DNA from: a virus
Direction: 5' to 3' (one strand)
Virus record (IMG/VR): IMGVR_UViG_3300018080_000142
Location: 29,680 to 93,679 of that record
Length of the DNA: 64,000 bases
The position numbers and the translations under genes were made by a program. Positions 655-14,648 of the stretch are shown here, in pieces. Under the pieces are notes generated by a model. It saw only the letters and a list, made by a program, of their open reading frames with translations. It was not told where the DNA came from and did not search any database. Within the stretch, counting starts at the first letter, position 1. Each line of letters begins with the position of its first letter.

Positions 655-1711
655 AGGAATCCTCGTAGAAAACATTCATGCCATCGATGATGACTTCTCC
701 ATCTTCCAGCTTCTGCTTAACTATTTCATCATTGGCTTTTATCCATTCCCTTACCGCTGTTTCATCAAGCGTCAGGAACTTTCGCGGAACTTTCGCGAAA
801 TCATACACATCGAACTTGATATTCTTCCTGATGCCTTTCCTAGCTTCCTTGATTTCTTTCTCACTACCCTTAATTTCCTTTTCAGTCTCAGCATCAATCT
901 TTTTCTTCATTTCCTCGCTTGTCTTGGCTGAATCTGATTCGGCTTTTGTTCTGGCAGTCATTATACCGGCCATTGCATCTTCACGGGATTCTTCAGACTC
1001 GCTCTCAGTAAGTAGAAGATTGGCTTTATGTTCGGCCAGGAGATTCTTTACATCCTGTACCATCTGCTCATAGGATTCTCTGTAATGAATGAACTCGTCA
1101 GGCTTTGGAATATTTTTGTCTATGATTGTGCTGAGAATTTCACAATCAGCTGATTTAAGGCATCCACGGGATGTTTTGGCCTGACCTGTCTTGTCATTCC
1201 AATTCCCACCATATATCCTGGCCGTAAGCTGACTGCGGATCCTGATTATCCTATCGGATTCTTCATTTTTTTCCTTGGCCTTCTTCTCTGCTTCTTTTGC
1301 CACCTTCTCAGCCTCGATCTTTGCGGCGGCAGCCTGGATCTTCTTGTAATTGGTGATGGCTGATCCGATAGCTGATTTCACTTCCTCGAGAGGTTTACTC
1401 AGAGTTTTTGCAAACTCATCGATCATCTTACTGGCTTTGTAATACGGATCTTTACGTAGCTTCCTGACCTTCTCAATGTTTCTCAGGATTTCGTTCAGCT
1501 CAGAGATATTATTCTCGGCTATAACGAGGGAATCATCGGTTTCAACAGCGATTTTGGCTGCATACTGTTCGAAATGTTTGATCTTGGTATCGATCTCAAT
1601 GAACAGTTTCTTTACCTGGATCGGTTTGAGCAATGACTCTCCTTCTTCCAGGATTTCTTGAGTTTGAACATCCTTTACGTCAGGATCCTCAGTTTTGTTA
1701 TTTGCTTTCAT
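641..1711 (-). CDS. Coiled-coil phage protein, DUF1351-like
   Basis: The product has 356 residues. The first two thirds are highly charged and alpha-helical, with heptad-like KxxEAEKVAKEAEKKAKEK runs. The C-terminus (about 300-356) reads like FDVYDFAKVPRKFLTLDE followed by WIKANDEIVK. That ending is typical of phage coiled-coil proteins encoded beside recombinases, including proteins annotated DUF1351. The role is unknown; it is probably an accessory to the recombination or replication genes in the same operon. It abuts the next upstream gene without a gap (stop 641, start 1711, neighbour ends 1712). Confidence 0.7.
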   Translation of the reverse strand: MKANNKTEDPDVKDVQTQEILEEGESLLKPIQVKKLFIEIDTKIKHFEQYAAKIAVETDDSLVIAENNISELNEILRNIEKVRKLRKDPYYKASKMIDEFAKTLSKPLEEVKSAIGSAITNYKKIQAAAAKIEAEKVAKEAEKKAKEKNEESDRIIRIRSQLTARIYGGNWNDKTGQAKTSRGCLKSADCEILSTIIDKNIPKPDEFIHYRESYEQMVQDVKNLLAEHKANLLLTESESEESREDAMAGIMTARTKAESDSAKTSEEMKKKIDAETEKEIKGSEKEIKEARKGIRKNIKFDVYDFAKVPRKFLTLDETAVREWIKANDEIVKQKLEDGEVIIDGMNVFYEDSYVSR

Positions 1712-6863: not shown

Positions 6864-7451
6864 TCAGAAATTTGTAGGTAATTTTTCGCTTACCTGTTCG
6901 GCAGGTACTTCTTCGTATTCAGCATCGTCAGCCCTCATCTTATTAAACTCACTTTTTAGCATAAAGCGCGTATGAGCCTCACATTTATTGCACCAATTAT
7001 CATCAGAATCGCCTGTTTCGTAAAGTTCGATAACATTGTTGCTATTAGGATCCACCCATGCCTTAGTTTGGATGTTAATGCCTCCGCATTGCTCACAAAC
7101 CAAAAGAGTATCATCTATGTTTGTGATATAATTTTCCAGGGCAAGTTTCATTTCAAAGATATGCCCGCGAAACTTCCTGTCTACATCTATGTAACCTTGG
7201 GTTACCTTGTCTGCATGAAGAACGGTTGCATGATCTTTCATGCCGAAGGTCTCGCCGATCTTGGATGTACTGCAGTTCGTCATTAACCTTGCAAAGTACA
7301 TACATATCTGTCTTGCTTGTACAACTTCACGCCTTCTGGTTTTTATCATGATCATCCCTTCGGATACGCCAGTGAATTTACTCACTGTCTTAAGAATTCT
7401 GTCCAGAAATTCCGGACCTTGTAAGTCATTTCTCAAAATTACTTGTGCCAT
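6864..7451 (-). CDS. DnaA domain IV protein fused to a zinc ribbon
   Basis: The protein has 195 residues. Residues 40-82 read RREVVQARQICMYFARLMT followed by IGETFGMKDHATVLHA. This is the origin-binding signature of bacterial DnaA domain IV (helix-turn-helix plus the (G/K)DHxTVxHA loop). No AAA+ ATPase domain is present. The second half carries CEQC (119-122) and a WCNKC knuckle, a zinc ribbon. It may bind DnaA-box-like sequences in phage or host DNA, either as an initiator remnant or as a competitor of host DnaA. The recurring AATTATTTTC motif lies 26 bp before the ATG. Confidence 0.8.
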   Translation of the reverse strand: MAQVILRNDLQGPEFLDRILKTVSKFTGVSEGMIMIKTRRREVVQARQICMYFARLMTNCSTSKIGETFGMKDHATVLHADKVTQGYIDVDRKFRGHIFEMKLALENYITNIDDTLLVCEQCGGINIQTKAWVDPNSNNVIELYETGDSDDNWCNKCEAHTRFMLKSEFNKMRADDAEYEEVPAEQVSEKLPTNF

Positions 7452-13173: not shown

Positions 13174-13212
13174 AAAAAAGGGAAATAAGCTACTATACTT
13201 CACTTATTTCCC
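13174..13212 (-). terminator. Intrinsic terminator of the tmRNA-like gene
   Basis: On the minus strand GGGAAATAAG and CTTATTTCCC form a perfect 10-bp stem (13180-13189 and 13203-13212) with a 13-nt loop, followed by six T (13174-13179). It ends the RNA gene about 18 nt after the P5-like hairpin. Confidence 0.8.
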
Positions 13213-13229
13213 CCGAACACAGATAGCTG

Positions 13230-13271
13230 TCAAGCAGCTAACCGATGCTCTTGATCGAAACGACTTTCGCC
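13230..13271 (-). other. tmRNA tag reading frame, GESRFDQEHRLAA-stop
   Basis: Thirteen sense codons from the resume codon GGC (13271) to TGA (13230-13232) encode GESRFDQEHRLAA. The preceding UUUAAUC fits the pattern just before a tmRNA resume codon. The start GE is typical of Bacteroidota tags and the end LAA is the usual proteolysis signal. The stop lies in the loop of TAGCTG-CTTGA-CAGCTA (13224-13240), as in helix P5 of tmRNAs. At 13 residues it is longer than most bacterial tags. Confidence 0.75.
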
Positions 13272-13332
13272 GATTAAACCTGATTGCTACAATATTCCAG
13301 GCCGATTATACGCTGTCAAAACATTCAGCCCC

Positions 13333-13610
13333 AGGCATGAGGACTTCCGGATAAACGGTGTTAAAGCATCGCCCTCAAATGCGTCACCATGTAGCTGACA
13401 TCAGGTGTTGATGTCTGTAATACGACCGGCCAGTATTACGCTACACTCCGGCATTTTCTGAACAACTGGCAAATTACAAAGAGCGCCGATGGCGGGAGCG
13501 ACCGCTTTACCGGGGAGATCTCGAGTGTCGTGAGACACCCGTACCATCCGGCTATTCCCTATCCAATCATCACGACAACACCGCAATAATGGAAAACAGG
13601 AGCCATCTAT
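13333..13610 (-). ncRNA. Structured internal spacer of the permuted tmRNA gene
   Basis: About 278 nt between the acceptor 3' end and the mature 5' end, expected to be excised. By eye it is full of helices. A three-way junction is closed by TGTAGC/GCTACA, with arms GTAATAC/GTATTAC and GACATCA/TGATGTC. There is a GTGTC-TCAC-GACAC hairpin and a GCC(G)GATGG/CCATCGGC helix. I find no protein frame on the transcribed strand that explains it. Confidence 0.6.
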
Positions 13611-13650
13611 TTGTGGAGCTGGGCGGTAACGAGCCGCCGTCCAAACGTAC
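13611..13650 (-). ncRNA. tmRNA-like acceptor piece: P2 strand, T-arm and acceptor 3' strand
   Basis: Minus-strand order: GUACGUU (P2 3' strand), GGAC, the 5-bp/7-nt/5-bp T-arm, CAGCUCC, discriminator A, then CAA. The 5/7/5 geometry directly abutting a 7-nt acceptor strand is that of a tRNA 3' end. Maturation would have to trim after the discriminator and add CCA. Confidence 0.75.
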
Positions 13651-13698
13651 CGTTCCTGGTACAGCAATCAGTACAAAGTTAGTTAAAAGTTTAAAAAG

Positions 13699-13718: not shown

Positions 13719-14648
13719 TCAGGATCTCGGATATCTTTCGTGATACAATACCCATAGATAATCCTTATCAAGCCTGTTAGCAGTACTTTCATTGTATTCA
13801 AAGTCCCGGTCGTTCATAATGGTAAAGGATCCGCTCCAACGGCCACCACGCTGAGACCGGTACTGTTCAACCTGTTCTTTTGTCACTTTCGCACCAAGCA
13901 AAAGACGCATTACATGATTCTGCCTGGGAGTTTCCAACAGAAGTAATTTCTTCATCAGGAACCGTCCAAACGATCTTGGCATACAGTCAAGCTGTTCTGC
14001 CCGGCCATACAAACCATATACCGGTGGAATGAGTTTTAACCACTTTTGCTTACGCCTGTTAACAGCAAGGAATTCATGCTTACGATTCATATATTCTTCC
14101 TGGGTAACTTCACGTCTGACTCCGAGGATCAGCTTCCATAGCTTAGACCAGAGAATTGTTACAATCATTTCAGGTATTGACCAGAGATAATAAAGGATTT
14201 CTGCCCATACCTTGCCACACAATGACAATGCCCATAGATGGAAATCAATAGTTTTCTTCCCTGCTCTTTTGCTGAAGGAAAACCTCCAAGGTATTTGATG
14301 ATAGAACAACCACACTGAGAATGTTGGTCTGGTCTTGCTGATCATTTGCAATGTTGTTGACAGGTGGTCACGACTCATATCCATTCTGTCATAATAGTGT
14401 GGATATCTCCAACCGAACAGGAAATGACCATGTGGACCACCTTCTTTTCTTTCCCAGCATGAACGGATCCCTTTTTCGAATCTTGGATCCTTATAGGTTC
14501 TCCTGGCCCTCTCAGTACGTGATATCGCATCGCCTCTGCCTTCATCACCATAGCGGTCATAATGGAGATTCTTGCAGAGCATCATATTGTCCTGAACAAA
14601 GAACATATGTTCCTGACTGTCCGGATCGTAAATCACTTCATAACTCAT
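13719..14648 (-). CDS. Hypothetical protein, 309 aa, with hydrophobic middle
   Basis: Not recognised. The N-terminal half is rich in Arg, His and aromatics. Residues about 148-175 form a hydrophobic, Trp-rich segment (AEILYYLWSIPEMIVTILW) that may be membrane-associated. The C-terminal half is basic. It overlaps the small upstream gene by ATGA and is the last protein gene before the tmRNA-like RNA. Confidence 0.6.
   Translation of the reverse strand: MSYEVIYDPDSQEHMFFVQDNMMLCKNLHYDRYGDEGRGDAISRTERARRTYKDPRFEKGIRSCWERKEGGPHGHFLFGWRYPHYYDRMDMSRDHLSTTLQMISKTRPTFSVWLFYHQIPWRFSFSKRAGKKTIDFHLWALSLCGKVWAEILYYLWSIPEMIVTILWSKLWKLILGVRREVTQEEYMNRKHEFLAVNRRKQKWLKLIPPVYGLYGRAEQLDCMPRSFGRFLMKKLLLLETPRQNHVMRLLLGAKVTKEQVEQYRSQRGGRWSGSFTIMNDRDFEYNESTANRLDKDYLWVLYHERYPRS

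Follow-up and report, generated by a model that had tools for sequence, protein, structure and literature searches.

A probable circularly permuted tmRNA gene in a phage of the crAss-like group

Positions 13671-13174, on the minus strand, of the window (the whole stretch of DNA that was analysed, 64,000 nucleotides, corresponding to positions 29680-93679 of a 93,679-bp IMG/VR record) are best explained, with the evidence taken as a whole, as a phage-borne, circularly permuted (two-piece) ssrA/tmRNA gene, a reading to which we assign a probability of about 0.85. Two-piece tmRNAs have usually been described from alphaproteobacteria, betaproteobacteria, cyanobacteria and marine phages. Along this strand, from ~13671 to 13174, the tmRNA 3' half is followed by a 281-nt spacer, the tmRNA 5' half, the tag, P5 and a terminator; since a one-piece gene starts with the GGGG end, this order is a permuted one. 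The 3' half stands upstream of the 5' half in the sequence, in the alignment to the permuted model RF04321, in half-profiles and in the covariance model R2, and the one-piece model RF00023 (5' half upstream, single piece) matches the 3' half only. An earlier note on this DNA had proposed a gene of this kind, and the RF04321 match, the half-profiles, R2 and the covariation described below bear it out.

Layout of the gene

The features recognised are the following, with the evidence for each in brackets.

13674..13681 (-): match TAACTTTG to a -7 promoter box, fitting the Bacteroidota TAnnTTTG (sequence; weak)
13614..13671 (-): acceptor piece (tmRNA 3' half), comprising P2 3' strand, GGAC, T-arm, acceptor 3' strand and discriminator A (RF04321 alignment, R2, cofold)
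13663..13670 (-): P2 distal block, 3' strand TGATTGCT, an 8-bp complement of 13288-13281 (cofold)
13655..13659 (-): P2 middle block, 3' strand CCAGG (complement of CCTGG, 13301-13297)
13644..13649 (-): P2 proximal block, 3' strand TACGTT (6/6 pairs with AGCGTA; covaries in homologues)
13622..13638 (-): T-arm GGCGG CTCGTTA CCGCC (stem intact; loop without T54 and A58)
13614..13621 (-): acceptor 3' strand CAGCTCC and discriminator A (7/7 pairs with GGGGCTG, including G3-U70)
13333..13613 (-): spacer of 281 nt whose removal is expected (fold z -0.87)
13326..13332 (-): acceptor 5' strand GGGGCTG, where RNase P is expected to create the 5' end of the coding piece (RF04321, half-profiles, R2)
13315..13325 (-): D-loop region AATGTTTTGAC, lacking one G that the ten compared homologues all have (alignment)
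13309..13314 (-): P2 proximal block, 5' strand AGCGTA (pairing, covariation)
13297..13301 (-): P2 middle block, 5' strand CCTGG (cofold)
13281..13288 (-): P2 distal block, 5' strand AGCAATCA (cofold)
13272..13276 (-): TAATC immediately 5' of the resume codon (sequence)
13230..13271 (-): tag reading frame GGC...TGA, encoding GESRFDQEHRLAA and a stop (RF04321 aligns the tag end TAGCTGCTTGA)
13224..13240 (-): P5 hairpin TAGCTG CTTGA CAGCTA, enclosing the tag stop codon (sequence, cofold)
13174..13212 (-): intrinsic terminator, 10-bp stem GGGAAATAAG...CTTATTTCCC and TTTTTT (sequence, fold)

Read in order, the acceptor piece (13670-13614) runs TGATTGCT..CCAGG..TACGTTTGGAC, GGCGG-CTCGTTA-CCGCC, CAGCTCC-A; CCA is not encoded, and CAA comes after the discriminator A. 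As had been noticed earlier, the T-arm, acceptor 3' strand and discriminator (13638-13614) precede the GGGGCUG 5' end (13332-13326, minus strand). The 5' half (13332-13272) runs GGGGCTG, AATGTTTTGAC, AGCGTA..CCTGG..AGCAATCA..TAATC, the last motif being comparable to the UAGUC of E. coli tmRNA. The tag codons are GGC GAA AGT CGT TTC GAT CAA GAG CAT CGG TTA GCT GCT TGA, that is, GESRFDQEHRLAA and a stop, and the tag finishes Leu-Ala-Ala-stop within P5. The description of a tag frame (13271-13230) ending in a P5-like hairpin (13240-13224) ahead of an intrinsic terminator (13212-13174) holds as well, the latter being missing from the list of the terminator scan because its 13-nt loop exceeds the length allowed there.

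The spacer folds no better than shuffles (z -0.87) and has no Rfam match of its own, so a structured element or known RNA within it was rejected. At the other end of the gene, the TAACTTTG box weakly suggests a transcription start near the acceptor piece's 5' end; the phage's own ORFs in general show no clear enrichment of TAnnTTTG in their upstream regions, and the motif is therefore just suggestive as host evidence.

Pairing, covariation and profile matches

The acceptor strands CAGCTCC/GGGGCTG pair in 7/7 positions, with the alanine G-U wobble at the third pair and the discriminator A following, and P2 can pair through three nested blocks (AGCGTA/TACGTT, CCTGG/CCAGG and AGCAATCA/TGATTGCT), both as the earlier note had described. 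An unconstrained cofold of the two pieces recovers acceptor, T-arm and P2, and the P2 duplex energy was reached by 2/2000 shuffles and by 3/2000 random genomic pairs; cofold, shuffles and the covariation of the proximal block all support P2 as the link between both pieces.

Eleven distinct phage sequences were compared over 18 pairs (acceptor, T-arm and proximal P2), in an alignment hand-trimmed to the conserved halves in which the spacer is a stub ending in an artificial AAA (unpaired columns, uncounted). In this set 94.9% of the cells are paired and 12/18 pairs show changes on both sides, with strong covariation across all three helices; not one of 500 shuffles equals the alignment on any measure, and sliding the partner lowers pairing to 43-58%. 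The G-U at acceptor pair 3 (G3-U70) is kept in 11/11, and the other acceptor pairs change together (GGGGCTG/CAGCTCC, GGGCGTG/CACGTCC, GGGGCAT/ATGCTCC). Homologues conserving the acceptor and proximal P2 pairing thus exist, and the window RNA has all 18 scored pairs intact.

When all 4227 Rfam families were searched, RF04321 (tmRNA_permuted) matched 13668-13230 (-) over its full model with 37.5 bits and E 6e-6 (1.9e-7 for the 93.7-kb genome). The Rfam covariance check suggested earlier is thereby answered in part: the match is there, but its score falls under the gathering cut-off (37.5 vs 47 bits), and neither ARAGORN nor Rfam at gathering score reports anything in the window. The gathering score marks where detection is accepted and is not a trait that defines the RNA biologically, and crAss-like permuted tmRNAs score similarly against the same model (35.3, 37.4, 43.6 and 46.2 bits).

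Covariance model R2, trained on ten other phage sequences with that of the window left out, places the window RNA at 46.2 bits (E 4.9e-10) in the 93.7-kb phage, the next best match having 14.6 bits; because ordinary tmRNAs of host genomes also reach 37-46 bits with R2 through their 3' halves, this score supports tmRNA identity, and it is the order together with the matching 5' half that carries the case for permutation. For the same reason R2 was rejected as a means of counting permuted tmRNAs across Bacteroidota genomes. With half-profiles from whose training the window was left out, 13649-13613 (E 0.23) and 13332-13312 (E 0.0033) come first in 64 kb, in the correct order. The match to a permuted tmRNA is confirmed as exceeding chance.

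The phage and its probable host

The terminase, portal and major capsid proteins match crAss-type PHROGs (phrog_6681, phrog_6547 and phrog_11589) and the muzzle protein matches crAss_MUZ, the four proteins by which the phage is assigned here to Crassvirales. By tblastn to cr phages, the terminase is ~21-28% identical to those of named crAss-like genomes, and a distant relative of it was found in a Cytophagales bin. Judged by these proteins the phage is crAss-like and, given the known host range of Crassvirales, its host is likely a Bacteroidota bacterium, in agreement with the setting that the earlier note had named. No SmpB gene was found in the phage, so host SmpB would be needed.

Two further proteins were observed on the minus strand: a stand-alone RadC-like JAB domain protein in the left arm of the phage (10133-10591; PF04002, E 7e-36), and a small protein with a DnaA C-terminal DNA-binding domain (6864-7451; PF08299, E 4e-23) that adjoins a helicase and is possibly a phage origin-binding protein.

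Permuted tmRNAs in other phages

The earlier note knew of no such gene in a phage of this host group, a claim of novelty that falls because crAss-like genomes with permuted tmRNAs are already annotated. Five RefSeq genomes (cr7_1, cr124_1, cr130_1, cr131_1 and cr273_1) carry permuted tmRNAs annotated merely as "SsrA", Bohxovirus and Dulem virus 42 contain unannotated ones, and others are found in a chromosomal element (genome G274, below) and in IMG/VR contigs. The window gene is not the first, permuted tmRNAs being present in many other crAss-like or related phages; what is unusual in this copy is that ARAGORN misses it, that its spacer is the longest of eleven and that its elbow is altered. 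No open paper discussing permuted tmRNAs in Bacteroidota phages was found. RefSeq viruses up to October 2023 were screened in the paper on the tmRNA database (PMC11915505), so the crAss-like records may already be in that database.

An RF04321 survey of Bacteroidota found a permuted tmRNA over the cut-off in 1/396 genomes (G274:C1:986035-986308). Its surroundings include rIIA/rIIB-, primase-, helicase-, polymerase- and integrase-like genes, with a crAss-like terminase 75 kb away on the same 1.6-Mb contig, and the locus looks like a crAss-like element integrated in a Bacteroidota chromosome (boundaries unmapped). Within the apparent element (C1:910091-997000; L084, L085, L086, L106) the permuted tmRNA, with tag GKVIQMNNAPVRLAA, stands beside tRNA genes; the genome also encodes a one-piece tmRNA of its own, whose tag is GEDNYALAA. 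The 5'-half motif of the element, GGGGCTGACTGGTTTTGAC, matched 14 viral contigs, eight of which have a permuted tmRNA by Rfam and/or ARAGORN (L089, L090, L093, L094, L095, L098, L099 and L100), one a permuted tmRNA below cut-off (L096) and five one-piece tmRNAs; crAss-like terminases are also found in L095 and L096. Contigs L087, L091 and L097 have a one-piece tmRNA with the tag ATVKLAMAA or AKVKLAMAA and, since L097 has a crAss-like terminase, both tmRNA forms occur in crAss-like phages. In the gut phages L101, L102, L105, L130, L131 and L134, most of them crAss-like, the tags share a DYT motif and end in -VA (DNVNNIVDYTNVA, GNYNVVDYTHVA, GNTSYVTDYTRLVA) instead of the usual -AA. One of these, contig MT835863 (L105), also carries at 691-865 (+) a RAGATH-9 RNA (RF03146, 147 bits), ~1.6 kb from its permuted tmRNA.

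The copies of Suoliviridae/Oafivirinae (cr7_1, NC_055895; cr124_1, NC_055899; cr130_1, cr131_1, cr273_1 and Bohxovirus) resemble that of the window in the order of the halves, the G3-U70 acceptor, the T-arm, the TTTTGAC D-loop end, the tag frame after P2 and the order Crassvirales. In contrast, the spacer has 70 nt in cr7_1 (the one measured) against 281 nt in the window, ARAGORN detects most of these copies and misses that of the window, their tags mostly end in -VA and that of the window in -LAA, and the T-loop, canonical in cr7_1 (the one aligned), is altered here. The G274 element and L089/L094, L093, L095, L096, L098, L099 and L100/L090 have nearly the same 5' half as the window (GGGGCTGACTGGTTTTGAC) and tags of variable length, mostly ending in -AA, some of them sharing a final RLAA or KLAA; they differ from it in a canonical TTCGA T-loop, a full D-loop and scores that in most cases exceed the Rfam cut-off (52-74 bits; 38.6 for L096), under which the window lies.

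Permutation, a tRNA-like domain and a tag frame are common to the window RNA, the families RF04321, RF01849 (alpha), RF01850 (beta) and RF01851 (cyano), and the two-piece tmRNAs of marine phages such as Melnitz (PMC9004378), from all of which the window differs in its host group, its long P2, which comes close to the resume codon, and its sub-threshold score. The one-piece tmRNA of Bacteroidota hosts (RF00023) shares the GGGGCTG-type acceptor and the tag start GE (GEDNYALAA in G274), but has a different gene order and tags of the GENNYALAA type.

Closer relatives were not found: the exact DNA patterns of the window halves had no match in viral contigs, blastn to phage records gave none, and a final pattern scan for the D-loop variants of the family was negative. 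The nearest phages, picked by terminase or helicase (36 records, most of them rescanned with R2), had no tmRNA at a meaningful score, and the neighbouring ORF 13719-14648 gave no relative by which syntenic loci could be traced. Weak matches in L014, L015, L064 and L066 were discarded, as on inspection they lacked tmRNA-like architecture, and those in G035 were short, T-arm-like and probably tRNAs.

Proposed mechanism and alternative explanations

From this arrangement we infer a single transcript running from ~13671 to the terminator at 13174, which host RNase P would cut at the GGGG end, with 3' trimming after the discriminator A and addition of CCA. Removal of the 281-nt spacer would leave an acceptor piece of ~58 nt and a coding piece of ~120-160 nt, expected to stay joined via the 7-bp acceptor stem and the long P2. 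G3-U70 could then allow charging of the RNA with alanine, and its delivery would depend on the SmpB and EF-Tu of the host. Rescue of stalled ribosomes during infection, which might possibly protect late translation as the earlier note supposed, would append the tag (A)GESRFDQEHRLAA, whose Leu-Ala-Ala end should send the product to ClpXP-type proteases.

Another, unlikely, use of the RNA would be as a decoy or modifier of host trans-translation, either by competing with the host for SmpB, AlaRS or stalled ribosomes or by replacing the host tag with one that leads to another fate. The phage tags are unlike host tags and unlike one another, the element-carrying genome G274 has a one-piece tmRNA of its own (GEDNYALAA), and there is a precedent in the tag-less phage tmRNA of DS6A, reported to inhibit E. 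coli tmRNA (PMC11915505); however, a full LAA-ending tag should feed ordinary proteolysis, and inhibition has no support here.

The tRNA-like elbow raises the question of whether the gene still works. The T-arm has its 5-bp stem, but the loop CTCGTTA departs from the TTCGA type at T54 and A58, both of which are kept in the ten compared homologues, and the D-loop is one G short in the window copy only; because T54, A58 and a D-loop G are lost, the contact at the elbow must differ. The elbow may fold less well or the copy may be decaying, and the change could mark a gene on its way to becoming a relic or one in which it has been compensated. We consider it quite unlikely that the gene is a decaying or inactive relic, its architecture visible and its elbow no longer competent: this copy alone of eleven has the three changes and the longest spacer, and no tmRNA was found in the nearest relatives, yet all 18/18 scored pairs, the open LAA-ending tag frame, P5, the terminator and the long P2 are intact, and a relic should shed pairs and frame as readily as loop bases. 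The intact pairs, tag frame, P5 and terminator favour a working RNA.

Finally, ssrA genes often serve as integration sites (PMC11915505), but host ssrA fragments left by integration (attP or attL), in permuted order by chance, are a highly improbable source and were rejected, given that both halves, tag frame, P5 and the long distal P2 complementarity are present, that the 5' half resembles those of phage permuted tmRNAs (GGGGCTGAATG-TTTTGACAGC vs GGGGCTGACTGGTTTTGACAGC), that the ORF next to it, 13719-14648, has no match to an integrase or to any other family, and that the same order recurs in other phages.

Significance

The probable permuted tmRNA gene of the window belongs to a set of two-piece tmRNAs, carried by phages and varied in their tags, which deserves attention because the sampled genomes of the phylum are otherwise without permuted tmRNA over the cut-off (1/396, that one among phage genes). 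The more divergent copies escape standard finders. Quite tentatively, the permuted tmRNA could be seen as a recurrent, exchangeable accessory of Bacteroidota phages, forming a lineage separate from their hosts' one-piece tmRNA and bearing tags specific to phages, with the D-loop/T-loop elbow rewired in this copy; it may override or re-tag host trans-translation beyond supplementing it. It is now testable whether a ribosome-rescue RNA is supplied by the phages themselves, and whether proteins given an altered tag meet a different fate.
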